The notes under the pieces: model-generated | Told to the model about the DNA's origin: nothing | Seen by the model: the letters and a program-made list of their open reading frames with translations, nothing else | The model's database searches: none | Part shown: positions 9,361 through 64,000 of the stretch, one piece after another | Layout of the letters: every line of letters starts with the position of its first letter | Position numbering within the stretch: the stretch's first letter is position 1 | Program-made: the position numbers and the translations under genes | From: Liopterus haemorrhoidalis | Taxonomy: Eukaryota > Arthropoda > Insecta > Coleoptera > Dytiscidae | Direction of reading: 5' to 3' | DNA length: 64,000 bases | Assembly: GCA_963971575.1 (NCBI GenBank) | Contig: OZ020612.1 | Span: 64,788,869-64,852,868, forward strand

Positions 9361-10330
9361 AAATTGATGTGAAATGTGAATTTTCACACATTTCAGGGTT
9401 TTGCAGGTATTTAGTAAGTGAATGATGATTATTTGGGATGCTAAAACAAATTTTATATTAAAATTTTTGTTTTGTTAAGTTTAATTCTAACGCCTAATAC
9501 CATTACTTAAATTTCTAAATATGTGCAGTATTTTTTTTTTTTATATATATAGCAAGGTTCTTTAAGATTTTGAAAATTGCGCCTATGGCTTTCATTGGTT
9601 GTTATAAGCTCCGCCCCTCTGATTTCGTGTACATTGAAACAGAATTTAATTATAATTTCAACAATTTCCACTGGTTATTAAATTTACGCTTTTAAAAATT
9701 AAATGCAATATTTGCCAAAATATAACTAGAATTTTGAAAAAATAATTTAAACATAAAATATGCAAAAAAAATATTGTCTCTTCTCGTGGGGATCGAACTG
9801 ACTTAGTTGGATGAAAAAGCCAGTGCAAGTACCACTATACCAGGATTAAGCCTTCCATTCGAGCATGTTACAAAGCTATAACTTGTGTACATTATTAGCC
9901 AAAAAAACACAAAAAATGCGTTTTTTTCCAAAAACATAATCTGATCAAAAATTCCTGTTGTACTATTCTGGTTCACACCAATGTACATTACTTAGAATTT
10001 TTTCTGATTTTTAGTATAAACCATCTGGGCTACAGGGTGTGGGACAAATTCTTTTTTGCACAATTTTGGCTAAAATCGCTTTAAAATAATTTATTTTGCA
10101 AAAATAAAAATTTGATCTTTAAACCACGTTCCAAGGGCTTTCATCTGATACCCTACTCAGAATTATAAAAAAATATTTTTATTTTCGATGAGCACATATT
10201 TGTTTATATTTTTAGGGGGATAAGTTTTTTAGATGTTTTAGTATTTTTCCTATGTGCGGGTCAAAGAGTTGTATAAGCATGCCAAATTTCAACTCTCTAG
10301 GTTTAGCCGTTTGGCTACAATTTTTACCGA

Positions 10331-10384
<54 letters not shown>

Positions 10385-10436
10385 GACAAAATGACGGTAT
10401 AAGTGTTTTTTAGTCATACCTACAAAACCCTAAAAA
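9361..10436 (-). mobile_element. HINE-1 copy A (Helentron-like, tRNA-like core)
   Basis: The near-complete reference copy. Read from its 5' end (right side, minus strand): TTTTTAGGGTTTTGTAGGTA, a (GTCT)n tract (10328-10383), a conserved ~430-bp block, a tRNA-like core at 9783-9854, a T-rich linker, a 3' block with GC-box/CCAAT/TATA motifs, the inverted subterminal repeat, and the 3' palindrome (gtgaattttcac). Subterminal repeats, a 5' microsatellite and a 3' hairpin are hallmarks of Helentron-associated elements (HINE/DINE-1 type). It sits in the purine-rich array. No proteins. Confidence 0.8.
9783..9854 (-). other. tRNA-like core of HINE-1 copy A
   Basis: On the minus strand an A-box-like TGGTATAGTGGTACTTG is followed ~35 bases later by a B-box-like AGTTCGATCCC. 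The middle, TGGCTTTTTCATCCA, recalls the anticodon arm of eukaryotic tRNA-Glu (TGG-loop-CCA). Acceptor pairing is poor, so a functional tRNA is unlikely; a Pol III promoter could remain. Confidence 0.6.
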
Positions 10437-10623
10437 TGGAGGGATCGAAGTAATGATAAAAAAAAGAGTAAAAAACTAAAAAGTCTTTGATAGCTCAGTC
10501 GCAAATCGCATTTTTTCATTTGCAAATGCGAACTAATGGGTTTTTCTCAACAACCACACTAAATGGGCAAAATCTTTTTAAGATACAGTTCTTCTGCAGC
10601 TGTCGTCTCAAACAATATCAAGA

Positions 10624-10716
10624 AATAATGCGCGCGCAGGCTGTACGGGAATGAAAATTTCCACACCACTGTACATGTGTATTTATTCATTCTCGCACTG
10701 CTTGCGCGCGCATAAT
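10624..10716. mobile_element. small MITE with GCGCGC ends
   Basis: A ~93-bp element with imperfect ~26-bp inverted repeats: ATGCGCGCGCAGGCTGTACG on the left and, inverted, ATGCGCGCGCAAGCAGTGCG on the right. The GC-rich ends contrast with the surroundings. A related copy lies near 61.94-62.05 kb. Target duplication not resolved. Confidence 0.6.
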
Positions 10717-12519: not shown

Positions 12520-12660
12520 CACATATATAGGGCCGTCACTAGCTTTTTTAGGGTCCTGGGCTAGATTTTATAGTTGCGTCCCTCTAAACACTATATAAGA
12601 CAAGTGTGTCCTAAAAAAAGGTCCTCACTTATAAAATACAAGTAATGAGCTAAAAAAAAA

Positions 12661-13494
12661 TTGATGTGAAGTGTGAATATTCACACATTTCAGGGTTTCG
12701 CAGGTATATAATAAATGAAGGCGGTATGCTGAGTGTGTAGGACAAATTTTACTTTGTAGTAATCACGGCAAAATGAAAGATATTTTAAAAATAATTTATC
12801 GTCTGTTAATCATATAATAAGATTGGTTATTAAATTTACGCTCATAAAAATTAAATACAACATTTGTCAAAATATAACTAGAATTTTGACAAAATAATTT
12901 CAACATAATAAAAATGCAAAAAAAAAAACAGAAAAAATAAAATTCACTCCGTACTCGAAACCCTTCGTTTTCCAGCCAGTTTAAGAGTGCTCTAACGCAT
13001 GTAGCCATCGCACGCCATGCATGTGAGTGTCTTACATTGGTATAACTTTTGTACTTTGTGAACCAAAAACCACAAAAAATGCGTTATTTTCCGAAAACAT
13101 AATCTGATCAAAAATTCCTGTTGTACTATTCCGGTTCACACCAATGTACATTACTGAGAATTTTTTCAGATTTTTAGTTTAAACCATCAGGGCTACAGGG
13201 TGTGGGACAAAATTTTTTTTGCACAATTTTGGCAAAAATCGCCTCAAAATAAATTATTTTACAAAAATAAAATTTTGATCGTTAATCCACGTACCAAGGG
13301 CTTTCTTTTGATACCCTACTCAGAATTGTAAAAAAATATTTTTTTTTTTCGATGAGCATATATTTGTTTATATTTTTAGGGGGGTATGTTTTTTAGATGT
13401 TTTAGTATTTTTCTTATGTGCGGGTCAAAGAGTTGTATAAGCATGCCAAATTTCAACTCTCTAGGTTTAGCCGTTTGGCTACAATTTTTACCGA

Positions 13495-13528
<34 letters not shown>

Positions 13529-13580
13529 GACAAAATGACGGTATAAGGGTTTTTTGGTCATACCTACAAAACCCTAAAAA
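12661..13580 (-). mobile_element. HINE-1 copy B
   Basis: Minus-strand copy with 5' end at 13580 (agggttttgtaggta inverted), a (GTCT)n tract at 13496-13529, the conserved 5' block, a tRNA-like core and a 3' block of the second type: gaaggcggtatgctgagtgt instead of the gaatgatgattatttgggat type found in copies A and D. The 3' palindrome is gtgtgaatattcacac. The core is the same kind as in copy C. Confidence 0.8.
12950..13012 (-). other. tRNA-like core of copy B, B-box damaged
   Basis: Minus strand GATGGCTACATGCGTTAGAG is A-box-like, as in copy C. Where copy C has gggtttcgagttcgagtacg, this copy reads gggtttcgagtacg: six bases are missing, removing most of the B-box. Pol III activity from this copy is therefore unlikely. 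Confidence 0.6.
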
Positions 13581-19128: not shown

Positions 19129-19676
19129 TTTTTAGGGTTTTGTAGGTATGACCAAAAAACCCTTATACCGTCATTTTGTCGTCTGTCTGTCTGTTCGGTA
19201 AAAATTGTAGCCAAACGGCTAAACCTAGAGAGTTGAAATTTGGCATGCTTATACAACTCTTTGACCCGCACATAGGAAAAATACTAAAACATCTAAAAAA
19301 CATACCCCCCTAAAAATATAAACAAATATGAGCTTATCGAAAACAAAAATATTTTTTTTAAATTCTGAGTAGGGTATCAAATGAAAGCCCTTAGTATGTG
19401 GATTAACGATCAAATTTTTATTTTTGCAAAATAAATTATTTTGATGCGATTTTTGCCAAAAATATGCAAAAAAAATTTTGTCCCACACCCTGTAGCCCAG
19501 ATGGTTTAAACTAAAAATCTAAAAAAATTCTAAGTATTGTATATTGGTGTGAACCGAAATAGTACAACAGGAATTTTTGATCAGATTATGTTTTTGGAAA
19601 ATAACGCATTTTTTGTGGTTTTTGGTTCACATAGTACAAAAGTTATACCAATGTAAGACACTCACATGCATGGCGT

Positions 19677-19746
19677 GCGATGGCTACATGCGTTAGAGCA
19701 CTCTTAAACTGGCTGGAAAACGAAGGGTTTCGAGTTCGAGTACGGA
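19677..19746 (+). other. tRNA-like core of HINE-1 copy C
   Basis: GATGGCTACATGCGTTAGAG supplies an A-box-like segment and CGAGTTCGAGTACGG a B-box-like one, spaced about 40 bases. A short stem can form around the anticodon position, but acceptor pairing is weak. The same core, lacking six bases, is in copy B. Confidence 0.6.
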
Positions 19747-19983
19747 GTGAATTTTATTTTTTCTGTTTTTTTTTGAATTTTTATTATGTTGAAATTATTT
19801 TGTCAAAATTCTAGTTATATTGTGACAAATTTTGTATTTAATTTTTATGAGCGTAAATTTAATAACCAGTCTTATTATATGATTAACAGACGATAAATTA
19901 TTTTAAAAATATCGTTCATTTTGCCTTGATTACTACAAAGTAAAATTTGTCCTACACACTCAGCATACCGCCTTCACTTATTA

Positions 19984-20249
19984 TTCGCGACTGCAAATAA
20001 CAGTGAGACGTCTGGTGGTGACTAGCTAAATTAAACAGAAGCGTATATTTGGATAATATTTGTAGCGTGTTGTGCTGCAATTTATGTGAATTAAGAAGTA
20101 TTTTAAAATATAGTGACTTAAATACAGTGAATTTTTGCCGAAATATTGTTTGAACAGATAAATATTAAGAAAAAACTTCTGACATATACGCTTCTCGTGC
20201 GCCATTAGCTGTTGTACGCAGCGCCGCCAACGTTAGTTTCAGTCGCGAA
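19984..20249. mobile_element. 266-bp TTCGCGACTG MITE inside copy C
   Basis: TTCGCGACTG begins the element and CAGTCGCGAA ends it; similarity extends inward imperfectly (aaataac / aaactaac). A second inverted pair lies further in (agaagcgtatat, atatacgcttct). Copies B, I and J show the uninterrupted site (cttattatatacctg). The insertion left either no duplication or a TA that has been lost. Confidence 0.75.
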
Positions 20250-20349
20250 TATACCTGCGAAACCCTGAAATGTGTGAATATTCACACTTCACATCAATTT
20301 TTTTTCATTTTATTCAATAAAATATACATTCTAAAAAAAACTTTTATTA

Positions 20350-24599: not shown

Positions 24600-25393
24600 T
24601 TATGGAATAAATGGTCGTTTGTAAGATCTTCTGGAGTTCACCATTCCCGATAAGTCTCTTTTAATACTCTAACAGTAGTCAGCCATCATGTGAGTATCCC
24701 ACCTTCCTTGATAACGTCTCTCCATCTCTTTTAAATCCTGATGGAAACGTTCACCCTGTTCATCACTAACATCTCCAAGATTGACAGGAAATTTGTCAAG
24801 ACTGTTTAAAAAATGAAGTTTCACGCTCATGTTGCACCCCAGATGATGATAATTTTCAATCAAATTTTCAATGACCTCCACATAGTTTTCGGCTTTTTTA
24901 TTCCCAAGAAAATTTGTGATGAGCGCCACGAAAGACTGCCATGCATTCTTCTCCATATCATCCATATGTACAGTGAAATGTGGATCATTCACTAATTTTC
25001 TAATTGTCAAAAATGCCAGCTTTTAGCTTCTCATTACTGAGACTTTGAAATGATTCAGATATATTTTTGAAACAGTCACCATCTTTGTTCAACGCTTTTA
25101 CAAACTGCTTCATTAGACCCAGTTTAATATGAAGAGGGGGGAAAATGATTTTTGTTCGCTCCACCAAAGGTGCGTGTATTATGTTTGGGTCTCCAACATC
25201 TATTCTCACCGGCCAATTTTTCTGAGTCCAATGCTTATCTCTCGCTCTGCTGTCCCACAAACAGAAAAACCATGGATATTTTGTGAATGCACCCTTGACC
25301 TTGCAACCCCCGCCGTTGTAAAAAGGTCTATAACAAGTACCTGCATGTATGGCGTCCCTACGAAATATATTGGACAACAAGAACGAAGTTGAA
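24600..25393 (-). pseudogene. multicopy arthropod protein family, fragment 1
   Basis: Minus strand, in order: FTKYPWFFCLWDSRARDKHW, PLVERTKIIFPPLHIKLGLM, KQFVKALNKDGDCF, ..KLKAGIFDN, then after a frameshift NDPHFTVHM..NAWQSFVALITNFLGN, GCNMSVKLHFLNSLDKFPVN, SDEQGERFHQDLKEMERRYQ, GRW..MMADYC, a stop where the family has Trp, and a short tail to a real stop at 24600. I recognise it as a large repeated family of unknown function in arthropods, presumably transposon-borne. The N-terminal half is absent. A second, worse copy is at 44.1 kb. Confidence 0.8.
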
Positions 25394-25601
25394 ATTAAAG
25401 TAAACGTATATCAGAACGTGAAAAGGTGAAAAAAGTCAAAATACGATATAACAAAAATTTGACGTGATAGGCAGAAACTGTTAACATTTTTTAAATCAGC
25501 ACCCCAAAATTAGTTAAAAACAAGTATCAGATCTAAGTCAGCAAAAAAAAGTTTAAATTTGTTGACCAGTGTTATCCGTATTTATGAAAGTTTATTTAAA
25601 A

Positions 25602-26001
25602 AATTGATGTGAAGTGTGAATTTTCACACATTTCAGGGTTTTGCAGGTATTTAGTAAGTGAATGATGATTATTTTGGATGCGAAAACAAATTTTATATTA
25701 AAATATTTTTTTTGTTCATTTTATTTCGAATGCCTAATACCATTATTTAGGTTTCTAAATATGTGCAGTATTTTTTTTTTATATAGCAAGCTTCATTAAG
25801 AATTTCAAAATTGCGCCTATGGCTTCCATTGGTTGTTATAAGTTCCGCCCCTCTGATTTCGTGTACATTGAAACAGAATTAAATTATAATTTAAACAATT
25901 TCCACTGGCTATTAAATTTACGCTTTTAAAAATTAAATGCAACATTTGCCAAAATATAATTAGAATTTTGAAAAAATAATTTAAACAATATAGAAATTAA
26001 A

Positions 26002-26041
<40 letters not shown>

Positions 26042-26610
26042 CTCCAGGGATCGATCCCTATCGGATCGGGTTACATGGGTGAAAAGTCAGCGTCAAATAC
26101 CACTAGACCAGCACACACGTTAGAGTGTTGCTTGTTACAAAGCTATAACTTGTGTACATTATTAGCCAAAAATCACAAAAAATGCGTTTTTTTCCAAAAA
26201 CCTAATCTGATCAAAAATTCCTGTTGAACTATTCCGGTTCACACCAATGTATATTACTTAGAATTTTTTCAGATTTTTAGTTTAAACCATCTGGGCTACA
26301 GGGTGTGGGACAAAAATTTTTTTGCACAATTTTGGCAAAAATCGCTTCAAAATAATTTATTTTGCAAAAATAAAAATTTGATCGTTAATCCACGTACCAA
26401 GGGCTTTCATTTGATACCCTATTCAGAATTATAAAAAAATATTTTTTTTTTCGATGAGCACATATTTGTTTATATTTTTAGGGGGATATGTTTTTTAGAT
26501 GTTTTAGTATTTTTCCTATGTGCGGGTCAAAGAGTTGTATAAGCATGCCAAATTTCAACTCTCTAGGTTTAGCCGTTTGGCTACAATTTTTACCGAACAG
26601 ACAGACAGAC

Positions 26611-26658
<48 letters not shown>

Positions 26659-26710
26659 GATAAAATGACGGTATAAGGGTTTTTTGGTCATACCTACAAA
26701 ACCCTAAAAA
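25602..26710 (-). mobile_element. HINE-1 copy D
   Basis: Complete minus-strand copy from tttttagggttttgtaggta (inverted, 26710) to attgatgtgaagtgtgaatt at 25602. Has (GTCT)n at 26597-26659, a tRNA-like core at 26043-26113, a (TA)n run at ~26009-26032 next to the core, the GC-box/CCAAT/TATA segment (inverted, ~25790-25850) and the 3' palindrome gtgtgaattttcacac. Core type matches copies A, F and K. Confidence 0.85.
26043..26113 (-). other. tRNA-like core of HINE-1 copy D
   Basis: Minus strand: TGGTCTAGTGGTATTTG (A-box-like), then GACTTTTCACCCATG, very like the tRNA-Glu anticodon arm, then about 17 extra bases before GGATCGATCCC (B-box-like). Of all cores here it most resembles tRNA-Glu. The extra hairpin before the T-arm is shared with copy F. 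Confidence 0.65.
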
Positions 26711-28417
26711 TTACTAAATATTTTCAAAAGTCTTCATATTTTGTCCCCCACTAGAAAAAAATCTGCGGGCGCCCATGATAGTAGATAAACTAGATAAAAA
26801 GGTTCAGGATAGGTTCTGGATAGTATCTAGCGAAGAATAAAGTCTTCCTCACTTCTCAATTAACATCTAACTCTCCACCGAGAGATTTTTTTTGTTTCCA
26901 AACTGAGGAACTCGTTAATAATTCGGTTTTTAATATATACAAGAATATATGAAAAGTAGGAAACTGATCTTTAAGCGAGTCCAATAATTATAAACAATTT
27001 TCAAAACTTAATACGTCGCGAAAATGTGAGACCCATCAAGTGTAACAATTAATATTTCTAGTAAATGCAATTTCAATTTCTCTAAGTATTGTGGATGTAA
27101 GTTTGTACTAAATGTTTGACATGGAAAGCAATTTGCATAACTTTTACGATTAAATATAATGAATCTTTGAGTAGTTGTAATTAATCTTGACGACAAATTA
27201 AATTGCCTGGAGTCATCTGTACCTGAAGCCCACCTGTACGACCCACGTGGTATCTCCGTTTCCATGGCAATTACCACGTGACAAATGGTTATTTTAACAT
27301 TTATAAACCATACGCGTGTTAACGACATTATTAACATACATTTTTGATGTCAAATCATGCGTTTATGATTTTATAGCACTGTTGATTAACTGGAAAGGTG
27401 ATATATAGCAGTAATACTATTAAGCTAGTTGCCTCTCTCGTCACTATTTTAAGTAGGAATCAACCAAGGTGCGATATTGTCGTTTCTAGAATTTATCTAT
27501 TAACAATGGACATATGTTTTTGTAGTATTTATGACTAAAAAAGAAAATAATTGATTTCAAGAACATTTTTCAGGATTTTGTAGGTATTTACAAAGTGATA
27601 CTAAATTGTGAACACAAATTAAAAATCATAAATTTCGATAACTTACGTGCTCAGGGGTGTCAAGAGGTAGCCCAAAGAAAATGTGTTGGCTTCTGAACCC
27701 TCGCCCAAGAAAAAATGTTGACTTCTAGGTTCCCCCTACGAAAATTATCTGGGGGCGCGCCAGATACATCCATATCCACGAATATTCACAAAAAAAAAAC
27801 ATATCCGAATCCGTTGATTTTGTGCCGGATATCATACGGATATTTTTATTAATAATAATGTATTACGAATTAAAATATTCTGTTAACCTTTACTAATAAA
27901 ATTTGTTTTAAAATTATTGTTTACTTTTTTCATATTAAAGTTAATTTAAATCATTTTTAGCTGTTTTAAGTAAAGTTTCAAGTTAAAAATAAGATAATCA
28001 GACCAATTCTGTAACTCAGTTACTATGATCATTGTAACAAAATTTGTGTCTATGAACAAGGTCTTTTTATACTTTTTATAATATTTTATCTTGTAGTAAC
28101 GTTACTACACAGTAAATTTTTACAGAATTGATCTGAATATATGCTGTTCACTTTTGTAAAAACAAATTAAGAGGAAATTTTGATTTCAATAGTTTGCACC
28201 TTTGAAATTGTATGCCATGTTGGTATTAAGATATTATAAAAAATGTCACTTTCTTAATAATGATCATAACCAATAAATCTAAAGTCAGTTTTACAGCGTA
28301 AGAAATATTTTTAATTGACATTTAAAGTCACTAATACACTATAAAAGTAACCAAAATAACTAGATCTGGCTTGCCCTTGCAAAAGTGAACAACATTTAAC
28401 AATAACAAGGGTATCAT
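26711..28417. other. unannotated region with shared hAT-interior sequence
   Basis: 26711-27640 has no recognised gene; a 109-codon minus frame (27008-27337) has no known relative but includes cacgtgg motifs. From ~27780, cgaatattcac and gcggat-like phrases suggest a hAT end. About 28160-28395 is collinear with ~45470-45665 inside the hAT at 44.9 kb (ttgcacctttgaaattg, aataatgatcataaccaata), so this is interior DNA of a related element, split by HINE-1 copy E. Confidence 0.5.
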
Positions 28418-29450
28418 TTTTAGGGTTTTGTAGGTATGACCAAAAAAATCCTTATACCGTCATTTTGTCGTCTGTCTGTCTGTTCGGTAAAAATTGTAGC
28501 CAAACGGTTAAACCTAGAGAGTTGAAATTTGGCATGCTTATACAACTCTTTGACCCGCACATAGGAAAAATACCAAAACATCTAAAAAAATATCCCCCTA
28601 AAAATATAAACAAATAATTACTCATCGAAAAAAATATATATTTTTTTAATTCTGAGTAGGGTATTAAATGAAAGCCCTTAGTACGTGGATTAACGATCAA
28701 AATTTTATTTTTGTAAAATAAATTATTTTGACGCGATTTTTGCCGAAATTGTGCAAAAAAAAAATTTCCCACACCTGTACCCCAAATGGTTTAAACTAAA
28801 AATCTGAAAAAATTCTAAGTAATGTACATTGGTGTAAACCGGAATAGTACAACAGGAATTTTTGATCAGATTATGTTTTCAGAAAATAACGCATTTTTTG
28901 TGTTTTTAACTAAAATATGTTAAATATTTAATTCGCTATGTAACAAACCAGATCAGTAACTCTGGTAGTTCAGTTGGTTTTGTGATGCACTTTGTAATTT
29001 GCAGTTCGAGCGTTGCAGAGTTCGAATCGTGTTAATTTTATTTTTTTCTGTTTTTTTTTGCATTTTTATTTTGTTTAAATTATTTTGTCAAAATTCTAGT
29101 TATATTTTGGTAAATGTTGCATTTATTTTTTAAAAGCGTAAATTTAATAACCAGTGGGAAGTGTTGAAATTATAATTTAATTCTGTTTGACGAAATCAGA
29201 GGGCGGGGCTTATGATATAAGCAACCAATGGAAGCCATAGGCGCAATTTTAAAAATCTTACTGAAACTTGCTATATAAATAAAATACTGCACATATTTAG
29301 AAACTTAAATAATGATATTAGGCATTCGAATTAAAATTCATAAAAAAATATTTTGACATAAAATTTGTTTTGGCATCCCAAATAATCATCATTCAGTTAC
29401 TAAATACCTGCAAAACACAGAAATGTGTGAAGATTCACACTTCACATAAT
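28418..29450 (+). mobile_element. HINE-1 copy E
   Basis: Starts tttttagggttttgtaggta with about three GTCT units and ends with a slightly decayed palindrome (gtgtgaagattcacac). The core at 28958-29032 is a type seen only here. The 3' block is of the copy A type, with ggggcgggg.., ccaatgg and tatataaat in the same order and spacing. A 106-codon antisense frame (28452-28772) covers the 5' block but is not considered a gene. Confidence 0.85.
28958..29032 (+). other. tRNA-like core of HINE-1 copy E
   Basis: CTGGTAGTTCAGTTGGTTTT is a strong A-box-like segment and CAGAGTTCGAATCGTG a strong B-box-like one, ~40 bases apart, with a long variable region between. Different from every other core in the window. 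Confidence 0.65.
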
Positions 29451-31058: not shown

Positions 31059-32308
31059 TGGCTCCGTGGCAAGACGGTTGCAGAGCGGTAGTAACGCCAG
31101 ATAATAACTGCCAGGGGCGCGAGGTCTGAGGGGCGCCATCGTGCGTTTTTGTTTAGTCATCACTTGTATTTTAGTAGTGAAGACGATTTTGTTTTTTGTC
31201 ATGACTTGTATTTTAAAAGCGAAGACCTTTGTTTGTTTTAGGTCATCACTTCTATGTTAGAAGTGATTTAACCCCCCCCCCCCCCCCCCCGTTACTCCCT
31301 AAATATTCATCTAATTGAAAAAATGCATTTACAAAAAAGATTTATTTTCTTATTATAAACAATTATTGTTATACAAATTTTTCTGTTAAGTCAATAATAA
31401 GGAAGATATTTTAAATGTTTTTAAATCTATAACCCCGAAACACCCCCCAATAATAAAATTTTGAAATACCTTATAGCCTATGGTTTTATCCTAGTTTTAC
31501 TATATCCTCATACCAAATTACATGAAAATATGTCCAGCCATTTTTGCGTGAATCTCGGACAAATAGACAGACAAAAATTGATTTTTGTGGGGGATATTGG
31601 CTTATAATCATCTAAAATGGAAGAAACCAAATATGAGGCCAAAACAATAAAAAAACAAATATAGCCCCCAATTTTATTAATATGGATTACAGTTAATTAA
31701 TGTACATTACTTCTAATTTTTTCAAATTTTTAGACCATCCATTTGACTATAATTTCTACCCACAGACAGATACATGAGTGCTGATGTAAGGGTATTTTGA
31801 TTATACCAACGAAAGCCTAAAAATGTATGTCTTTAATATCTAATTTTGTGTTTCATTTTCTAAAAATTGTATGATTTTTATGCATGAAATCTTCACATCT
31901 GTCCAAAGTAAATGATTCAGTTACTTAACAGAATAAAAAACAGATAAAAATAATAGAAAGGAAATGAAAGAAAACTAAGAGAAATTCTCTAGGGAGGGTA
32001 TTTCCTGTTTTCAGAACTGGACTTACTGTACAATAACAAAAGCGACAAATGAACTTGGAGTCCGAGCGCTACCGAAGAAACACACAGAATACGAACCACG
32101 AAAACTGATTTTTAGAAATCAAATAAAAATACAATCTAATTGAGGTTGTAGATACTTCATTTAAGGAGTTTTGAGGTGTGTTAGAACCTTAATTGAATGC
32201 TTGTAATGGGGTAGAAAATATACAGAAGGGTATTAAGAATATCCAGAACGAAATATCAGAGTACTTGACCTTCAAAATAATACCTAGTCTTACAATAAAT
32301 ACTCACAA
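31059..32308. other. repeat debris, including a 19-base C tract
   Basis: 31272-31290 is an uninterrupted run of 19 C. 31291-31430 is an inverted, diverged copy of ~43038-43180 (ggggagttacgg, gatgaatattt). About 31520-31580 carries a separate segment with gccatttttgcgtgaatctc and gacagac. 31690-31827 is a much-decayed 5' fragment of HINE-1 on the minus strand (acagacagatac.. aagggtattttgattatacc). No gene. Confidence 0.5.
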
Positions 32309-35929: not shown

Positions 35930-36175
35930 TAGTGGTTTTTAGGGTTTTGTGGTTTTTGTAACTTGCATTTTGGTAAAAATCGGTTAGCTAGAAATGGAAG
36001 TTTACTCGTGTCGATTTTAAGATTTTTGGGAATATTTCACAACAGAGAAATATTTCCCAAAAATTTATTTAACAAAAGTTGCTATAAAAGTAATAAGTAA
36101 TAACTTTTATTTGAGACATTTTTTGATAAAGCAGCATAAATTAAACAAGTACTTTGACAGCTGATTTTTTTAAAT
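35930..36175 (+). mobile_element. HINE-2 fragment
   Basis: Collinear, in inverse orientation to the copy at 8.75 kb: ggtaaaaatcggttagctag, gtgtcgattttaagattttt, aaaagttgctataaaag, gacattttttgataaa, ending acagctgatttttt. It lacks the (GTCT)n half. Preceded by a ttagggttttgtgg phrase resembling a HINE-1 5' end. Confidence 0.65.
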
Positions 36176-37306: not shown

Positions 37307-37409
37307 ACTGTAGTACAATTAATTAAAGACGAAACAAATGCAATAAGTAGTGATTTGTGGAAAAAATGTGTAGAACATGTAAAGACATGTATTTTTTTTG
37401 AACTTTAAT

Positions 37410-37610
37410 CAGACGCGCACCCATGTAGGTGGAGGGATGGAGCCCCCCCTCCAGCTTGAAAAACACGTGGTTTTTACGTGTTTTTGTCAAAATATAAGTT
37501 GTGAGCCCCAAAAACATATGGTTGTTATGGGTATATATGAATATATCACCCCTATTTTGAAAGTGAGGACGTTTTTTTTGAGACCTAAAACAATCCTGGG
37601 TGCGCGCCTG
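37410..37610. mobile_element. hAT-like MITE
   Basis: CAGACGCGCACCCATG at the left and CTGGGTGCGCGCCTG at the right are imperfect inverted repeats, 201 bp apart. Flanks actttaat and ctctcaat agree only partly. Confidence 0.5.
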
Positions 37611-37624
37611 CTCTCAATAGTTTT

Positions 37625-37762
37625 TCTACATGTGGCTCAGAGTTGTACAAGCATGCCAAATTTCCACTTTCTAGGCCAGATTGAGTACATCTTCTACTGT
37701 ACAGACAGACAAAGAGTGACGTTATAAGGGTTTTTTTGATAATACCTACAAAACCCTAAAAA
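37625..37762 (-). mobile_element. HINE-1 5' fragment, diverged
   Basis: Minus strand: agggttttgtaggta at the right edge, two GTCT units, then the start of the 5' block with many substitutions (agcatgccaaatttccactt). The truncation may be original, since the remainder is absent. Confidence 0.7.
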
Positions 37763-38441
37763 TGAAACCATTGGTTTGTTTTCTCCACTCCTAGAACACT
37801 ATATAATTTTGAAAAACACTAATAACTACAAATAGTGAATTTACAGATTGTGACCTAACGAGTCAATAAAAATTATTACCAACTTAAAATTCTTTTCCCC
37901 TATATTTTAAGTAATTAGTGTTTCAAATTTAAACTAGCGTTTAAAACTATATACTTTAAAATTAAAAGAGAACATATGCCAGTCCGTGTAGATATTTTAA
38001 CATGTTAATAATAAAATTAGATAATTCGACATTATTACAAAAGTTTTTGAACATTAGCTTTTTAAAAATTCTCCCGAGCTGCTCTCTAGCATACATTTTA
38101 TGCAAATTTAAAAATTATGTAAATTAAAAACATAAACTAAAATGAATATATGAGTTGTGAAGTTTTTTATAGAGAAGTGCATCAAATATACACTTTTGAA
38201 GGCGACCACTTTTCAGTTTAGACCTACCTCGCATATACATTTAAATAATGATACGAATACAACTTTCCAATGCTATAATTAAGCACAAAAATATTCAGTC
38301 CGAACTTTTTGAAATAGTTAAAGAGATTTTACTCTCCATTTATGAGTTTGCATATTAATTGCGTAGGATTCTAACGACAAAGTAATTGCAAAACTATATT
38401 TCTTTTTCGCAATCTGGTCAATACTGTCTCAAAAGAAATAA
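37763..38441. other. unannotated AT-rich sequence
   Basis: No gene or repeat recognised before the LINE fragment. Confidence 0.45.
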
Positions 38442-41160: not shown

Positions 41161-41764
41161 GATAGTAAGTTCAAAGATTACTTGACTGATATACAACAAT
41201 GGTGTACTTATACCGTTGCTATTCTATTACTACCCTAAAGCCTATATTACTTTTCTAAAATAGTCAATATAAGTATGTAAATATTAATAGAACTATGTTT
41301 GGTCACTAGATGAATTTTATTGTTCCGAAAAGTAAAATTAAAATTGACACATAGTCATATTTTTTTGTTTGTGAATAAATCTAAATATGATTTATAAATG
41401 GGACAGTAGTTTCCGAATGGCTGACGTCATATCAGCAGTTGTCTCTCGTTTTAATTGCTAGAGACCACAATTGAAGTCAATTCAATCGTCCATATATAAC
41501 AGACAATATGCAACACTGCACATGCGCTATATTTTTTTCCATCAACTCCAAATGTCAGAACGATTATTGATTTTGAATATTGATATATTTAAGACAAAAA
41601 AAACTTGCAATATATTACATATTTGCATGTAGACCGTTTAAAGAATTGCTCTAGGACATTTTATTAACTTTTTGCCGAACACTACATGTGTAAGGCAGGT
41701 ATTTATACCGATTTTGACATTTCAATGGATGTCCACGACCTGAAGTCTCTACATAACGTTTTGA
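41161..41764. other. unannotated sequence
   Basis: No gene. A tgacgtcat palindrome at ~41423 is isolated. Confidence 0.4.
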
Positions 41765-41990
41765 TTATTTTTATCTCGACGGCGGTCTGTTTATCTGTCT
41801 ATCTGTCTGTCTGTCTGTCTGTCTGCCTGTCTGTCTGTTTGTCTAACTACATGCCTGTCTGTCTGTCGATCTCTAAACACGTATAGAGTGAATTTGGGTA
41901 CACGGATTTTTATTAAACTTCATATTTAAATTTATGATATCAATGCCACCATTTGATCAATTTTTGGTAAAAATCTATCAAAAAAAATAT
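41765..41990 (+). mobile_element. HINE-2 fragment with expanded GTCT tract
   Basis: A long imperfect (GTCT)n / GTCTGCCT tract (~41787-41871) is followed by sequence matching inverted HINE-2 (cacggatttttattaaactt, catatttaaattt, caatttttggtaaaaatc). Diverged. The frame 41686-41886 is repeat-encoded Val-Cys-Leu-Ser and is not a gene. Confidence 0.65.
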
Positions 41991-42022: not shown

Positions 42023-43037
42023 ATTTTTAGGATTTTGTAGGTATGTCCAAAAAACTCTTATACCGTCATTTTATCGTCTGTCTGTTCGGTAAAAATTGTA
42101 GCCAAACGGCTAAACCTAGAAAGTTGAAATTTGGCATGCATATACAACTCTTTGACCCGCACATAGAAAAAATACTAAAACATCTAAAAAACATATCCCC
42201 CTAAAAATATAAACAAATATCTGCTCATCGAAAAAAAAATATTTTTTTTAAATTCTATGTAGGGTATCAAATGAAAGCCTTTAGTACGTGGATTATCGAT
42301 CTAAATTTTATTTTTGCAAAATAAATTATTTAGAGGAGATTTTTGCCAAAATTGTGCAAAAAAATTTTCTCCCACACCCTGTAGCCCAGATGGTTTAAAG
42401 TAAAAATCTGAAAAAAATTATAGGTAATGTACACTTGTGTGAACCGGAATAGTACAACAGGAATTTTTGATCGGATTATGTTTTCGGAAAATGACCCATT
42501 TTTTGTGTTTTTTGCTTGACCACATAAAAGATTTAATAACTTATCTAAGACGGTGAACCACCATGCTTTGATAGTGTAATGGCTAGCATGCTCGCGTTCT
42601 AATTTGCAAACTAAGGTTCGCTCCGCTCTCAAGGCAATTTTATTTTTTCTGTTTTTTTTTTTTGCATTTTTATTTTGTTTAAATTATTTTTTCGAAATTC
42701 TAGTTATATTTGGGCAAATGTTGCATTTAATTTTTAAAAGCGTAAATTTAATGATCAGTGGAAATTGAAATTGAATACACGAAATCAGAGGGGCGGGGTT
42801 ATGACTTAAAAACCAATGGAAGCCATAGGCGCAATTTTCAAAATCCTAATGAACCTTGCTATATAAAAAAAAATACTGCACATATTTAGAAACCTAAATA
42901 ATGGTATTAGGCATTCGAATTAAAATTAACAAAAAATATATATTTTAACATAAAATTTGTTTTGGCATCCCAAATAATCGTCACTAAATACTTGCGAAAC
43001 CCTGAAATGTGTGAAAATTCACACTTCACATCAATTT
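42023..43037 (+). mobile_element. HINE-1 copy H
   Basis: Starts tttttaggattttgtaggta with two GTCT units; has the 5' block, a core at 42566-42634, the linker, a 3' block with ggggcgggg (42790), ccaatgg (42813) and tatataaaa (~42860), and ends tgcgaaaccctgaaatgtgt plus the palindrome. It lies directly before the unit that is also seen inverted at 31.3-31.4 kb. Confidence 0.85.
42566..42634 (+). other. tRNA-like core of HINE-1 copy H
   Basis: GATAGTGTAATGGCTAGCAT (A-box-like) and AACTAAGGTTCGCTCC (B-box-like), about 35 bases apart. A core type unique in the window. Confidence 0.6.
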
Positions 43038-48301: not shown

Positions 48302-48610
48302 ATACAGGGTGTTTGTTTGGAACGCCACAACTCGAATAACTCCTTTATTTTAACAGATACAAAAAATTCTTCAAAAGAACAATTAAACTAGACAAAAGGG
48401 CCCACTTAAGGACTATAATAATTCTGCATCACTTCCGGTTTCAGCGGCAATTGTTTCAACTTTTTATCTAGCGTAGGGAATCGGTACTTTAATTTATTTT
48501 TTTTCTTGAAAGTACATTAAATCAGCTTTACAAGCATATCAGAATATCATACTTTAATTTTAACCATTTCAAAATGGCGACCATTTATTTACAAAATAAT
48601 AAATAACAAA

Positions 48611-49675
48611 AATTGATGTGAAGTGTGAATTTTCACACATTGCAAGGTTTCGCAGGTATATAATAAGTGAAGGCGGCATGCTGAGTGTGTAGGACAAATT
48701 TTGCTTTGTAGTAACCACGGCAAAATGAACGATCTTTTTAAAATAATTTATCGTCTGTTAATCTCAGAGCTTTAAAAACAAATTTTATGTTAAAATATTT
48801 TTTTGTTAATTTTAATTCGAATACCTAATATCATTATTTAGGTTTCTAAATAAGTGCAGTATTTTTTTTTATATAACAAGGTTCATTAATATTTGAAAAT
48901 TGGGCCTATGGCTTTCATTGGTTGTCTTAAATCATACGCTCCGCCCCTCTGGCTTCGTATAAATGACACAGAATGAAAATATAATTCCAATCGGTTATTA
49001 AATTTACGCTCTTGAAAATTAAATTCAAAATGTACTAAAATATAATTAGAATTTTAACAAATTAATTTAAACATAATAAATATGAAAAAAAAAAACAAAA
49101 AATAAAATTGACTCCACAAGCCAGGAACGAACCTGTGTAGTGAATAACGATCCTGTGTGGTTGTCGAGCAACTGAGCCACTAGACCACCAAATGCTTATC
49201 AACTTAGTGTGTTATAAGAGTATAACATGTGTGCATCGTCAACAAAAAAACACAAAAAATGCATTATTTTCCGAAAACATAATCTGATCAAAAATTCCTG
49301 TTGTACTATTCCGGTTCACACCATTATACATTACTTAGAATTTTTTCACATTTTTAGTTTAAACCATCTGGGCTACAGGGTGTGGGACAAAAATTTTTTT
49401 GCACAATTTTGGCAAAAATCGCCTCAAAATAATTTATTTTGCAAAAATTAAATTTTGATCGTTAATCCACGTACTAAGGGTTTTCATTTGATACCCTACT
49501 CAGAATTTAAAAAAAATATTTTTTTTTTTTCGATGAGCACATATTTGTTTATAATTTTAGGGGGATATGTTTTTTAGATGTTTTAGTATTTTTCCTATGT
49601 GCGGGTCAAAAAGTTGTACAAGCATGCCAATTTTCAACTCTCTACGTTTAGCCGTTTGGCTACAATTTTTACCGA

Positions 49676-49709
<34 letters not shown>

Positions 49710-49761
49710 GACAAAATGACGGTATAAGGGTTTTTTGGTCATACCTACAAAACCCTAAAAA
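48611..49761 (-). mobile_element. HINE-1 copy I
   Basis: Minus-strand copy, closely similar to copy J throughout, including a chimeric 3' part: the outermost ~150 bp is the B/C type (gaaggcggcatgctgagtgt), continuing into the A/D type (aggtttctaaataagtgcag, CCAAT and GC-box motifs). (GTCT)n at 49676-49709; core at 49112-49190. Inserted between the transposase remains and one inverted repeat of its host element. Confidence 0.85.
49112..49190 (-). other. tRNA-like core of HINE-1 copy I
   Basis: Minus strand: GTGGTCTAGTGGCTCAGTTG then CTCGACAACC (A-box-like) and CACAGGTTCGTTCCTGGC (B-box-like, inside a 4-5-bp stem CAGG/CCTG). Near-identical to the core of copy J. Confidence 0.65.
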
Positions 49762-50116: not shown

Positions 50117-50535
50117 AATTACAAACGATTTGATGTTATCACCTTCAATATTAAACTCGTACTAACAGGCACAAAAATTTGCAGGTTTTATTTGGGTTTT
50201 TTATGTAACAAAATCATTTTCAATGCTTGCTATGTTTGTACGATTTGTTATTTATTATTTTGTAAATAAATTGTCGCCATTTTGAAATGGTTAAAATTAA
50301 AGTATGATATTTTGATATCCTTGTAAAGCTGATTTAATGTACTTTCAAGAAAAAATAAATAAATAAAGTACCGATTCCCTATGCTAGATAAAGAGTTGAA
50401 ACAATTTCAACTGAAACCGGAAGTGATGCAGAATTCTTATTATAGTCCTTAAGTGTGCCCTTTCATCTAGTTTAACTTTTCTTTTGAAGAATTTGTTGTA
50501 TCTCTTAAAATAAAGGAGTTATTCTTAACTTTTTT

Positions 50536-52768: not shown

Positions 52769-52820
52769 TTTTTAGGGTTTTGTAGGTATGACCAAAAAAC
52801 CCTTATACCGTCATTTTGTC

Positions 52821-52874
<54 letters not shown>

Positions 52875-53940
52875 TCGGTAAAAATTGTAGCCAAACGGCT
52901 AAACCTAGAGAGTTGAAAATTGGCATGCTTGTACAACTTTTTGACCCGCACATAGGAAAAATACTAAAACATCTAAAAATCATATCCCCCTAAAAATATA
53001 AACAAATATGTGCTCATCGAAAAAAAAAATATTTTTTTTAAATTCTGAGTAGGGTATCAAATGAAAACCCTTAGTACGTGGATTAACGATCAAAATTTAA
53101 TTTTTGCAAAATAAATTATTTTGAGGCGATTTTTGCCAAAATTGTGCAAAAAAATTTTTGTTCCACACCCTGTAGCCCAGATGGTTTAAACTAAAAATGT
53201 GAAAAAATTCTAAGTAATGTATAATGGTGTGAACCGGAATAGTACAACAGGAATTTTTGATCAGATTATGTTTTCGGAAAATAACGCATTTTTTTGTGTT
53301 TTTTGGTTGACGATGCATACATGTTATACTCTTATAACACATTAAGTTGATAAGCATTTGGTGGTCTAGTGGCTCAGTTGCTCGACAACCACACAGGATC
53401 GTTATCCACTACACAGGTTCGTTCCTGGCTTGTGGAGTCAATTTTATTTATTTTTTTTTTTTTTCATATTTATTATGTTTAAATTAATTTGTTAAAATTC
53501 TAGTTATATTTTAGCACATTTTGAATTTAATTTTCAAGAGCGTAAATTTAATAACCAATTGGAATTATATTTTCATTCTGTGTCATTTATACGAAGACAG
53601 AGGGGCGGAGCGTATGATTTAAGACAACCAATGAAAGCCATAGGCCCAATTTTCAAAATCTTAATGAACCTTGTTATATAAAAAAAATACTGCACTTATT
53701 TAGAAACCTAAATAATGATATTAGGTATTCGAATTAAAATTAACAAAAAAATATTTTAACATAAAATTTGTTTTTAAAGCTCTGAGATTAACAGACGATA
53801 AATTATTTTAAAAAGATCGTTCATTTTGCCGTGGTTACTACAAAGCAAAATTTGTCCTACACACTCAGCATGCCGCCTTCACTTATTATATACCTGCGAA
53901 ACCCTGCAATGTGTGAAAATTCACACTTCACATCAATTTT
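52769..53940 (+). mobile_element. HINE-1 copy J
   Basis: Plus-strand partner of copy I. Starts caatttttagggttttgtag, then the longest GTCT tract of the family (~13 units, 52821-52874), the 5' block, a core at 53360-53438, the promoter-like segment (ggggcgg, ccaatga, tatataaaa), the chimeric 3' part and the palindrome gtgtgaaaattcacac. With copy I it forms a ~1.15-kb inverted repeat around a 3.0-kb loop. Confidence 0.87.
53360..53438 (+). other. tRNA-like core of HINE-1 copy J
   Basis: GTGGTCTAGTGGCTCAGTTG then CTCGACAACC, and CACAGGTTCGTTCCTGGC: A- and B-box-like, ~45 bases apart. Same type as copy I, with few substitutions. Confidence 0.65.
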
Positions 53941-56184: not shown

Positions 56185-56530
56185 ATTTTTCCAGTTACAG
56201 AAAAATTAATGCGATCTTTTTACGCCAAGATTTGTTAGTATAAAATAAGTGATTTTTTTTGGCACATTTTTTTGTCAAGAAATTTCTCAAAAAAATGGAT
56301 TTTTTGATATTTTTTTGAATCTGTACCTCAGATTTTATTTTGTTTTTTTTTTTAATTTTTATGGCCATTGCTGCTTTGGCAATTAGCCAGGACAATTATT
56401 TTTTGAAAAATTCCATGCCTGAGCGGGATTCGAACCCGAGACCTTAGCAACGCAAAGCATATGTGTTACCACTACACTACGCCGTCGGCTTTTTTGTAAT
56501 TATTTTTCAAAAATATATATTTCTTTATTT
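56185..56530 (-). mobile_element. insertion with a tRNA-like head in the tandem array
   Basis: About 345 bp splits the fifth array unit. On the minus strand a tRNA-like head (56407-56493) is followed by a body containing attgtcctggctaattgcca and an A-rich run. A tRNA head plus a body suggests a SINE, although no clear tail or target duplication was fixed. Confidence 0.5.
56407..56493 (-). other. tRNA-like sequence, best A/B boxes in the window
   Basis: Minus strand: GCGTAGTGTAGTGGTAACAC (A-box-like) and CTCGGGTTCGAATCCCG (B-box-like with a 4-bp T-stem CGGG/CCCG). The acceptor pairs at the first three positions (GCC..GGC) then mismatches, and no good anticodon stem forms. tRNA pseudogene or SINE head rather than a working tRNA. 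Confidence 0.6.
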
Positions 56531-57445: not shown

Positions 57446-57858
57446 TTCTCCACGACCACCAAAAAGAAAAATAAATTAACAAATAATTATTTTAACAAAC
57501 ATTTTATCTTAACAAATAATTTATATTACATAACAAATTAATCAATTAATTAAACTATTTTTTTTATTTTAATTTAATTTGCCGCACATCGGCCACTATT
57601 TTAGGTTAGGAAGTTATATTGCATTTATTTAATGTAAACGTTGCATATATCTTAATGTAACCCTACAAAAACAAAAGACAACAAGTATGGAATAGTTATT
57701 CCATAACAAGTGATGGAATGAAATACATGCAAAATGCATAAGAAGATAAGTGCTTTAGAATAACATTCCAACTCTTGTGTTAGAATATTTACTTTCTGTA
57801 GTCAAAATTGGTTTTAGAATTGTTAAATTCTATAGTGGTCGTGGAGAAAATACATTCT
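57446..57858. repeat. inverted-repeat unit (ttctccacgaccac ends)
   Basis: ctttctccacgaccac at ~57450 and gtggtcgtggagaaaa at ~57838 face each other across ~390 bp of AT-rich DNA. Superfamily unknown. Confidence 0.5.
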
Positions 57859-58376
57859 AGCAGCAGAGTAGAAATAACTTGGCCCAATATTTTCTAACAA
57901 AGATATTATTTATCATTATCATGGAAACGTTACATACAAGTATGAAAAAATAGATGTTCGTTTTATCAAAAAAAGTCACAAATAAAAGTTGTTAGTTATT
58001 GCTCTTATATCATCTTTTGTCAAATAAATTTTTTCGAAATATTTCTCAGTTGTGAAATATTCTCAAAAATCTTAAAACCGACACGAGTTAACTCCCATTT
58101 CTAGTTAACCAATTTTTACCAAAAGTTGTTCAACTTGTGCCACTGATGTCAAAAGCTTAAATATGAAGTTTCATATAAATCCTTTTAGCTGAATTTGCTC
58201 TGTACATGTACACAGACCAACAGACAGACAGACAGACAGACCGGCAGACATCATGCTACAATTAGTCAAAACGTTATGTAGGGACCTCAATTCGTTGAGA
58301 TCCACTGAAATCTCGAAATGTCAAAATCGGTATGATCACAATGCCTCCCTTATATATGTTGGAGGTCGGTAAAAAC
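57847..58376 (-). mobile_element. HINE-2, copy 2
   Basis: Collinear with the 8.75-kb copy from aaatacattctagcagcaga to ..ggaggtcggtaaaaa, with (GACA)n at 58207-58241. The cagctgtgg terminus is missing. The non-tract end reads cctcccttatatatgttgg. Confidence 0.75.
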
Positions 58377-59505: not shown

Positions 59506-59508
59506 ATT

Positions 59509-59881
59509 AAAAAAATCAGCTGTGGCCACCACAGAACCGTGGTGGCATAACCATAGAAACGTTACATATAAGTATGAAAAAATATATACTTAAATAAATA
59601 GAAAAAATTTCGAAACATTTTTCAAAATTTTTTCGTTTTATCAAAAAATGTCTCAAATAAAAGCTGTTCGTTATTCAACTTTTGTTAAATAAATTTTTTT
59701 GAAATATTTTGCTGTTAAATATTCGCAAAAATCTTAAAATCGACACGAGAAAACTCCCATTTCTAGTCAACCGATTTTTACCAATATTTTATCAACTCGT
59801 GCCATTGATGTCAAAAGCTTAAATATGAAGTTTCATAAAAATCCTTTTAGCCGAATTGGCTCTGCACGTGTACACAGACAG

Positions 59882-59912
<31 letters not shown>

Positions 59913-59935
59913 TCATGCTAAAAATAGGCACGACC
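59509..59935 (-). mobile_element. HINE-2, copy 3
   Basis: Starts aatcagctgtggccaccaca followed by gaaccgtggtggc, so gccaccac/gtggtggc makes an 8-bp stem next to the terminus, as expected for a Helentron 3' hairpin. Continues collinearly to the (GACA)n tract (59875-59910) and catcatgctaaaaatag, where it stops. Confidence 0.7.
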
Positions 59936-60165: not shown

Positions 60166-60275
60166 ACGCTGCTTCCATCTCCTATAAAAGCAATACTGCA
60201 TTCCAACGTTTGAACGGACCATAGATGTAAATTTTAATATGTACCCACTTTTTGAGAAATTTTAATCATAATATA

Positions 60276-61880: not shown

Positions 61881-61934
61881 AATTCCGTATGTTACACTCA
61901 TGGACACGCAGGCGGTGCAGTAATGAATAAATTC

Positions 61935-62045
61935 GCACCAATACGCAAGCGCAGTGTGCGAGAGAGTATAAATTCGCATTGCACTGCGATGTGCAGCGAT
62001 ACCATAATTTTCATTCCCGTACTAGCTGCGCGCGCATTAATGGCT
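61935..62045. mobile_element. GCGCGC-ended MITE, copy 2
   Basis: Right part cattcccgtactagctgcgc gcgcatt matches the left end of the 10.62-kb MITE in inverse orientation; left part aatacgcaagcgcagtgtgc is a weaker match to its right end. Diverged. Confidence 0.5.
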
Positions 62046-62142
62046 GTCCACAATATTCACATAGCATTTTCTTGATTATTTTTCTTTTTATTTATTGAAA
62101 TATGGTAATCGGAAGAATAGAAGCATAGTGTACAACTAGTAA

Positions 62143-62460
62143 AGGCCTGCACGGGCTCGGGCTTGGCCCGTGGGCCCAGGCCCGACCCGGCCCGAGGGCC
62201 GGGTTCGGGCCGACTGACATGTATTATATTCGGGCTTGGGCCGGATAAGAACAATAATACCTTTTTAAATAATATATTTTTAAACCTTCGTTAAAAATAT
62301 ATATATATATTTTAATTTCTAGTTTTATAATTATAACAAACTGTAAGCAATTGTATCATATTATTTTTTTAACGAGGTTTATTCGGGCCGAACTTTTGTC
62401 GGGTTCGCCCGGGTAGATGCAATAATTGTATTAATATTTTCGGGCTCGGGCAAGAATAAA
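62143..62460. mobile_element. GC-rich hAT-like end with CGGGC clusters
   Basis: aggcctgcacgggctcgggc is followed by a dense run of ggcccg/cgggcc motifs (62150-62240), an AT-rich middle, and a second cluster (62380-62452: ttcgggccgaac, cgggctcgggc). This matches hAT architecture with subterminal motif arrays. Exact right terminus and duplication not resolved. The frame 62057-62254 is encoded by this repeat. Confidence 0.5.
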
Positions 62461-62689
62461 TTGCTTCACTCGTGTATGGCTCGTTTAGCAAACTTTATTC
62501 TTATGCGGAATATATGGCATTCCGCGCTAGTTGTGCAGTATACTATTAACGTGTCCATACCAACATATTTGTTATTTTATTTATTTATTATTTTTTTGAA
62601 AACAACTTTTTCGCAGATTACTATAATAGCAAAAAAATCGTATTTTTTGTTTTGTTTTGTTTTAAGTGCCTTATTAATCAATGTTAATA

Positions 62690-62960
62690 TTGTTGCCTTC
62701 AAAGTAATTTCCATTGGATACAATACTTATCCCAACGCTTCTCCCAATCTTCGACACAGTTCTGGAGTCTGGTTTTTGGTATGGCCTTCAGTTTATCAAT
62801 TTTTGTTTTGTCTTAGGAAAAAATAACACGGGAACAACTATGGCGAGTACGGAGCCTACAGAATCATCACTCTTTTATTTTTTACCAAAAAGTCTGGAAC
62901 AAGCAATGAAGTGTACGCTGGTGCATTACCATGGTGCAAGTCCACGAATTTTTTCACCAC
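62690..62960 (-). pseudogene. mariner transposase C-terminal fragment
   Basis: Minus strand: NSWT, frameshift, HHGNAPAYTSLLVPDFLVKN, KRVMIL, stop, APYSP, then disrupted sequence and DWEKRWDKY near VSNGNYFEGNN. This is the mariner order H-H-D-N-A-P-x-H-T..P-P-Y-S-P-D-L..E-D-W-x-x-R-W..G-N-Y-F-E-G. The catalytic D of HHDN is G and the SPDL Asp is a stop. It differs from the 51-52.7 kb mariner, so a second lineage is present. Confidence 0.85.
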
Positions 62961-63551
62961 AATTTGGCAGTTTACTTTCATTTTATTTCATTTTTAACAA
63001 AAAATTGTTAGATTGATTTTTAGTTTCTGACAATGGAAATTGCCAAGCACACAAAAATGCGTCTAATTTCTTTGGCTATCAAATACAAACTAAACCGCCA
63101 ATATGCCTCCTATTTTACATAGGAGGTGTAAAAACTATATCAAGCAAAATGTATAAAATCGGACAATGCTTAACGAACAAAAATATCAATTTTTTGATGA
63201 CACGTCGTATATAAATATGAAATTATTTATGCGGTTATTTGCAATGTTATTAGAGTGAGGTACGCCTCTGGTTAAAGTATGGAGTGGCCTCCTCTGACCC
63301 CAGTTGTAACCGTTGTTTAAGTGTTTCCTAGCGCGCTCTTCGCCATTGTGTCATGTAACATAGATTCACCAACACACACTAAATCCCTCTTTTTATAACC
63401 ACCTTCATTAGGAAGCTGTGAAATTATTCATGTACCACAATAAATGGCACACAAGAGAATGGATGATGAATTAGAATAGGAAAACTATGAGATGACAAAG
63501 TCAAAATCTCCTCAAAATCATAATTAAACTTGTAAAATAGATACAAATGAA
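62961..63551. other. unannotated AT-rich sequence
   Basis: No gene or repeat recognised. Confidence 0.45.
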
Positions 63552-64000
63552 AAAAATTGATGTAAAGTGTGAATTTTCACACATTTCAGGGTTTTGCAGG
63601 TATTTAGTTAGTGAATGATGATTATTTGGGATGCCAAAACAAATTTTATATTAAAATATTTTTTTTCTTAATTTTAATTCGTACGCCTAATACCATTATT
63701 TAGGTTTCTAAATATGTGCAGTATTTTTTTTTATATAGCAAGGTTCATTAAGAATTTTAAAAATTGCGCCTATGGCTTCCATTGGTTGTTATAAGTTCCG
63801 CCCCTCTGATTTCGTGTACATTGAAACAGAATTAAATTATAATTTAAACAATTTTCATTTTTTATTAAATTTACGCTTTTAAAAATTAAATGCAACATTT
63901 GCCAAAATATAACTATAATTTTGAAAAAATAACTTAAACAATATAAAATTTAAAAAAAAAAAAAACAAAAAATAATATTGTCTCTTCTCGCAGGGTTCGA
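63552..64000 (-). mobile_element. HINE-1 copy K, cut by the window edge
   Basis: 3' half of a minus-strand copy: attgatgtaaagtgtgaatt, palindrome gtgtgaattttcacac, the A/D-type 3' block with tatatag, ccattgg and ccgcccc (inverted promoter-like motifs), linker and the start of a core of the A/D/F type (tctcttctcgcagggttcga). The 5' block and GTCT tract lie beyond the window. Confidence 0.85.

Follow-up and report, generated by a model that had tools for sequence, protein, structure and literature searches.

Elements of the HINE/DINE-1 (INE-1) type are non-coding and are characterized by subterminal inverted repeats (subTIRs), a microsatellite, a 3' palindrome and insertion into T-rich sequence without duplication of the target (PMC4067079, PMC7492417). 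In DINE-1 and in the oyster elements, a further inverted repeat is nested at the 5' subTIR (PMC4067079, PMC7492417), and the number of Ts varies in some of the published families (PMC4067079); canonical Helitrons start with 5' TC, end with 3' CTRR and insert between A and T (PMC4067079). Variable centers are already known from HINEs, e.g. in the form of tandem repeats: in Cg_HINE of the Pacific oyster, a left module (subTIR, inverted repeat and microsatellite, in several of them of GTCY type) and a right module (subTIR and palindrome) enclose, in fixed orientation, a variable center that consists of a satellite-like tandem array (PMC7492417). In the 64,000-nt stretch of contig OZ020612.1 of the beetle Liopterus haemorrhoidalis analyzed here (the window; AT-rich, GC content of 31.9%), a family of corresponding anatomy was found that differs from these systems in its tRNA-like core; tRNA is not mentioned in the accessible text of either PMC4067079 or PMC7492417.

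Copies of the element are located on both strands of the window: eight full copies, one mosaic (e36) and one copy cut by the window edge (e63). According to ends and alignment, the full copies on the minus strand comprise e9 (9364-10436), e12 (12661-13580; 3' part shortened), e25 (25604-26710) and e48 (48613-49761), those on the plus strand e19 (19129-20297; with a nested insert at 19985-20248), e28 (28417-29449), e42 (42024-43034) and e52 (52769-53936). The mosaic e36 (36314-37765, plus strand) is composed of a 5' end (36314-36476), part of a second copy with a core (36589-37180), a piece of 5' block (37194-37305), to which this core is joined through a T/A tract, and an inverted 5' end (37618-37765); e63 (63551-64000, minus strand; 3' limit approximate) is represented by its 3' part and the end of a core only, and is absent from all core counts, as no complete core is present. 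The initial annotation had proposed nine near-complete or mosaic copies and an edge-cut one between 9.36 and 63.55 kb that follow a common plan; matches to the end motifs and the alignment indeed place copies at these positions, eight of the nine being full and one mosaic, and the plan is common to all of them including the edge-cut copy. Read in sense direction from 5' to 3', every full copy consists of five Ts, AGG[AG]TTTTGTAGGTAT, its inverted partner, (GTCT)n, a block of 420-426 bp, the core of about 130 nt, a T tract, the 3' part, the inverted end repeat, a 16-bp palindrome, CAA (TAA in e28) and a T run. The constant block of about 430 bp described initially, measured between the last microsatellite unit and TTTTTGTG, is present in all nine copies; its length in e36 is 417 bp.

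The end anatomy was directly observed in the aligned copies (see e25 on the minus strand: 5' subTIR AGGGTTTTGTAGGTAT at 26690-26705, followed after 4 nt by its inverted partner AAAAAACCCTTATACC, (GTCT)n at 26597-26658, 3' subTIR at 25635-25650 and 3' palindrome GTGTGAAAATTCACAC at 25614-25629). In the window, 22 sites match the 5' end motif at up to three mismatches, against 0.97 expected from shuffles. For the 3' palindrome, which varies at its two central bases only, plus one end base in e9, there are 19 matches with both strands counted (1.08 expected). All eight full copies are flanked by Ts: exactly five Ts, preceded by a non-T base, stand before AGG[AG], and 5-12 Ts follow the terminal CAA (e28: TAA). 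Each full copy carries a subTIR of 16 bp at either end, with 0-3 mismatches to one motif, and an inverted partner lies just inside the 5' one (AGGGTTTT...AAAACCCT); the fold of the 44-nt 5' end (-7.1 kcal/mol) was equaled by 3 of 200 shuffles, and the 52-nt 3' end revealed a weak single-strand fold (14 of 200 shuffles as good). The (GTCT)n microsatellite comprises at least two units in each full copy, five longer arrays being detected by a tandem-repeat finder, and in typical copies the palindrome stops 10 nt before the CAA end (15 nt before the T5 end). Compared with the HINEs of mites (PMC4067079), the subTIRs are slightly longer (16 versus 12-15 bp), their distance to the 5' end is 5 nt if the five Ts are counted (versus 2-4 nt) and that to the 3' end 31-36 nt (versus 38-60 nt).

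The subterminal inverted repeats, microsatellite and 3' palindrome noted initially as HINE/DINE-1 features therefore match the published anatomy, and the classification of the family as non-autonomous, Helentron-like and HINE/DINE-1-like is supported on structural grounds within the window. A canonical Helitron was rejected since the ends are of the type TTTTTAGG...CAA/TAA plus Ts instead of 5' TC and 3' CTRR. Flank searches within the window yielded no clean uninterrupted target site that would display the T|T insertion expected initially (repeats adjoin e12, e28, e42 and e48), and no open reading frame (ORF) for a Rep, helicase or endonuclease domain was revealed by Pfam among the three examined of the five window ORFs of at least 120 amino acids.

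The central slot, with differing cores on a near-identical backbone, is real. Identity of the 5' block is 90-99% among all pairs of nine copies (e63 is without the block) and that of the 3' part 75-98% among all pairs of nine copies (e36 left out), whereas the cores fall into five groups with 76-99% identity within and 38-55% between groups. Group I comprises e9 (core at 9776-9907, minus strand), e25 (26032-26173, minus strand), e36 (37035-37173, plus strand) and, as far as seen, e63; group II e12 (12945-13070, minus strand) and e19 (19618-19749, plus strand); group III e28 (28903-29033, plus strand); group IV e42 (42508-42635, plus strand) and group V e48 (49110-49250, minus strand) and e52 (53299-53439, plus strand). 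When each group was represented by a single core, identity averaged 47.8% versus 39.1% for shuffled cores aligned alike, and none of 60 rounds reached the former value; since it exceeds that of the shuffled cores, a very distant relationship among the cassettes is probable, although they are far less alike than the surrounding backbone.

Among the 428 columns of the 5' block, 90 are variable and ungapped, of which 71 are singletons. Sites common to a core group versus the majority of the other copies number 1 for group I, 2 for group II and 12 for group V (this comparison covers these three groups, groups III and IV being represented by one copy each). In consequence, groups I, II and V go back to ancestors with nearly the same 5' block and very different cores, and because so few sites of the 5' block track the core group, core and backbone seem to be of different history; this observed discordance points to an exchange of cassettes. 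A core that is simply a hot spot of mutation was rejected as the cores of e12 and e19 are 99% identical and their 5' blocks 95%; in e9 and e25 the cores are 76% and the 5' blocks 96% identical, and both ratios could not be generated by a simple hot spot, whereas exchange fits. The 3' half is modular as well: e48 and e52 harbor a 104-bp segment that is 95% identical to that of e19.

The tRNA likeness of the cores was observed at the level of primary sequence. The nine complete cores scored 40.5-49 against 28 animal tRNAs, and, when each core was compared with 300 dinucleotide shuffles of itself, its score was reached by no shuffle in e9, e12, e19, e28 and e52, by one in e36, e42 and e48 and by two in e25. 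Outside the elements, 3 of 1,726 half-overlapping tiles attained 40.5 (53, 43.5 and 40.5), the highest value being that of a tRNA-like head resembling a short interspersed element (SINE) at 56.4 kb, and in all eight full copies the score (calculated with 11 of the 28 tRNAs) was highest over the core in sense orientation. The best-matching tRNA differed by core group (Glu, Thr, Gln and Gly; Thr in e12). With consensus patterns of the A and B boxes and a cut-off score of 15, there were 13 distinct A+B sites on both strands of the window, of which 7 lie in sense orientation in the cores, one in the SINE-like head and 5 elsewhere. The pairs are located at 9789-9842 (e9), 26047-26110 (e25), 28966-29029 (e28), 37098-37160 (e36), 42572-42625 (e42), 49123-49187 (e48) and 53362-53426 (e52), while the two group II cores (e12, e19) only scored 14. 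Tested as fixed 140-nt cassettes, the A+B score was reached by none of 1,000 shuffles in e9, e25, e28 and e36, by 1 in e42, 2 in e52, 3 in e48, 44 in e19 and 49 in e12.

The presence of functional tRNA genes was rejected. ARAGORN detected no tRNA gene in the whole window, and the Rfam search of the whole window gave no tRNA at the gathering score, with a permissive run matching none of the cores. When short stretches were submitted, the tRNA model of Rfam matched the core of e42 over its full length (42565-42636; 13.7 bits, E value of 2 over 4,227 families); those of e9, e48, e28 and e19, the other four of the five cores run (e12, e25, e36 and e52 were left out), were unmatched. In a hand-made cloverleaf scorer, 18 positives from bacteriophage T5 obtained 16.2-33.9 and the cores 9.0-16.0; the core score was reached by 0 of 200 shuffles in e42 and 1 of 200 in e9, by 17-23 of 200 in e36, e25 and e19 and by 48-154 of 200 in e12, e48, e52 and e28. 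Promoter-like elements and primary likeness thus persist while tRNA folding is mostly lost. Of the tRNA-like slot postulated in the initial annotation, the fixed slot, the A and B boxes and the primary similarity stood within the window; cloverleaf and covariance support did not in most cores.

The layout of the cores is observed to be promoter-like. In all nine cores, a distance of 63-65 nt separates the A box from the 5' block, and an alignment of one core per group (e25, e12, e28, e42 and e48; e9, e36, e19 and e52 left out) revealed a GTTATA/TTTAAT-like block at -43 to -34 from the A box that is 64% identical in the five groups and was not matched by any of 2,000 shuffles. Identity of the next 27 columns (-33 to -7) was 29%, a value reached by 538 of 2,000 shuffles; over all 58 columns together, the five rows were more alike than in any of the 2,000 shuffles. 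This alignment was anchored on hand-named A boxes, that of e12 being weak, and the shuffles preserve base composition only. If tRNA position 8 marks the start of the A box, the TATA-like block would be positioned at about -35 to -26, where the upstream TATA element of an RNA polymerase III (Pol III) gene would lie. Each of the nine cores has a T tract downstream, in e25 with a (TA)n stretch in between. The pattern of a type 2 Pol III promoter, i.e. A and B box at tRNA-like spacing and a subsequent T run, is found, with an A+B score of at least 15 in seven of the nine cores; the cassette is therefore read as a putative Pol III promoter-like unit.

Taken together, we consider a HINE-like family in which a cassette of about 130 nt, derived from tRNA-type Pol III genes, would be exchanged among copies on essentially the same backbone to be the most probable reading (probability of roughly 0.6). 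Several points weigh against it: T4-T5 runs between the boxes of four of the nine cores (e9, e25, e28 and e36) would hamper full-length transcription by Pol III, the A+B pair of group II is weak (44-49 of 1,000 shuffles reach it), the Rfam tRNA model matched one of the five cores run and this below the gathering score of 29, the cloverleaf was clearly above the shuffles in two of nine cores only (e9, e42), and groups III and IV, being single-copy, stand outside the comparison of 5'-block ancestry. Furthermore, the fixed spacing and the identity between groups (47.8% versus 39.1%) point to one common ancestor of the cassettes, and therefore do not demonstrate that different tRNA genes were captured repeatedly. 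The same two features, along with the TATA-like block common to all five groups, would also be expected if a single ancestral tRNA-like core had diverged in place, with constraint acting on its Pol III promoter sites and on the remainder of the element but leaving the other core positions free to change, and no exchange would then be needed. We regard this as unlikely, since a mere 1-12 of 428 sites in the 5' block track groups I, II and V as opposed to cores of 38-55% identity between groups, and since the ratio of core to 5'-block identity is inverted between pairs of copies (cores above 5' blocks in e12/e19, far below them in e9/e25), which fits recombination and not one rate of change.

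If SINE heads derived from tRNAs, or tRNA genes, had each separately been inserted or captured at one hot spot again and again, this would explain why the core groups best resemble different tRNAs; a tRNA-like, SINE-like head is indeed available at 56.4 kb, and Helentrons are able to capture gene fragments (PMC4067079). The cores, however, are always in identical orientation and at constant distance from the 5' block, their weak similarity is common to the groups, and neither tails nor target-site duplications were seen by eye in the alignment around them; nested SINE insertions were rejected on these grounds and the more general capture scenario appears improbable. A cut-and-paste miniature inverted-repeat transposable element (MITE) with a TTTTT target-site duplication would account for the five Ts that open all eight full copies and the five or more that close them, and it would agree with the lack of a RepHel match by Pfam in three of the five window ORFs of at least 120 amino acids. 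As the repeats are subterminal and not terminal, and as the nested 5' inverted repeat, the microsatellite and the single 3' palindrome match HINEs, we favor rolling-circle propagation and judge a MITE to be quite improbable. That the tRNA likeness has arisen by chance in AT-rich DNA and the cores are unrelated filler might be concluded from the covariance-type tests, which were failed by most cores and thus did not bear out this part of the initial annotation (one of five cores below gathering score by Rfam, a clear cloverleaf in two of nine); it is contradicted by the shuffles of each core, the background tiles, the scans of the whole window and the sense-strand peak at the core, and can hardly be correct.

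In the exchange reading, the element would have been moved in rolling-circle mode by an unseen Helentron, and the cassette between the 5' and 3' modules would descend from tRNA-type Pol III genes. Exchange of cassettes would most likely have involved a switch of template within the T tracts on either side of the core as rolling-circle copying proceeded, or gene conversion from one copy to another. The fixed spacing, the slightly raised similarity and the TATA-like block that the cassettes have in common suggest that they were drawn from an old, diverse pool of single origin rather than from five fresh captures. From the promoter-like sequence features we infer that the cassette could recruit TFIIIC or Pol III; as most cores cannot be folded as tRNA and four of nine contain T4-T5 runs, a benefit would reside in the binding of TFIIIC/Pol III, which might hold donor copies open or insulated, and not in the RNA itself. 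It is a tentative proposal, which we rate as less probable than not, that alternative cassettes are shuffled into the slot as an exchangeable Pol III module and kept as the binding aids mobility or protects the element from silencing, with, as part of the same joint proposal, their variety possibly being maintained like an allelic series at one locus with homogenized surroundings.

Insect SINEs derived from tRNAs, such as PxSE1, resemble the core in possessing a tRNA-related region with A and B boxes and a partial tRNA resemblance, that of PxSE1 being 64% identity to Drosophila tRNA-Arg (PMC8010984). The head of a SINE, however, constitutes its 5' end and the element is driven by a long interspersed element, whereas the tRNA-like part described here is internal, some 550 bp into a DNA element whose ends are of HINE type. 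A report of a tRNA-like core in Helentrons or HINEs was not found in the open-licence literature searched, most subscription journals being outside this scope; the accessible parts of PMC10294476, PMC9659126, PMC6934838, PMC3522703, PMC5555453, PMC11955569 and PMC7334843 do not describe one. Pattern scans of viral contigs resulted in a single match (L003), which shares only stretches of 19-28 bases with the element and was taken as chance; there were no matches to the element patterns in contigs of prokaryote genomes, and none in phages (queried with e19 only) or plasmids (queried with e25 only). If the reading is true, a swapped Pol III promoter-like cassette would connect rolling-circle DNA transposons with the Pol III/TFIIIC machinery, an association known mainly from SINEs as far as mobile elements are concerned, and the family would provide a natural test of whether such promoters alter the mobility or silencing of a DNA element.

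A second Helentron-like family is present at 8794-9333, 57847-58375 and 59601-59930 (minus strand), 41669-41975 (plus strand) and 35968-36130. It carries GTCT arrays at four of the five places; three copies with a visible 5' start open with a T run and ACCGACC or a similar motif, and two exhibit CTGTGG..CCACAGCTGA plus Ts near their likely 3' end. The window scan detected no A/B-box sites in this family at the same cut-off, and it therefore serves as an internal contrast to the first one. The SINE-like head (56423-56479, minus strand) contains strong A and B boxes, reached 25 bits with the tRNA model of Rfam (gathering score 29) and adjoins tandem repeats of 130 and 154 bp.

The 264-bp insert of e19 (19985-20248) is missing from e12 where the two copies align. 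It is bordered by TCGCGACTG terminal inverted repeats, with AT direct repeats on either side, and has the appearance of a small nested DNA transposon. An inverted pair of a 280-bp repeat (48334-48610 and 50244-50524; 93% identical) starts its match inside the 3' T run of e48. Tandem units of about 42 bp form an array at 31145-31266, related sequence flanks e12 and e28, and the nearby segment 31286-31317 resembles the 3' flank of e42; the T runs in this unit may be preferred targets. An ORF at 25000-25410 (minus strand) without Pfam domain has 1,086 protein matches, many of them uncharacterized, with up to 70% identity among the matches listed, and the named ones among the best 120 of these 1,086 are of animal origin (sponge, spiders, amphipod and sea squirt).

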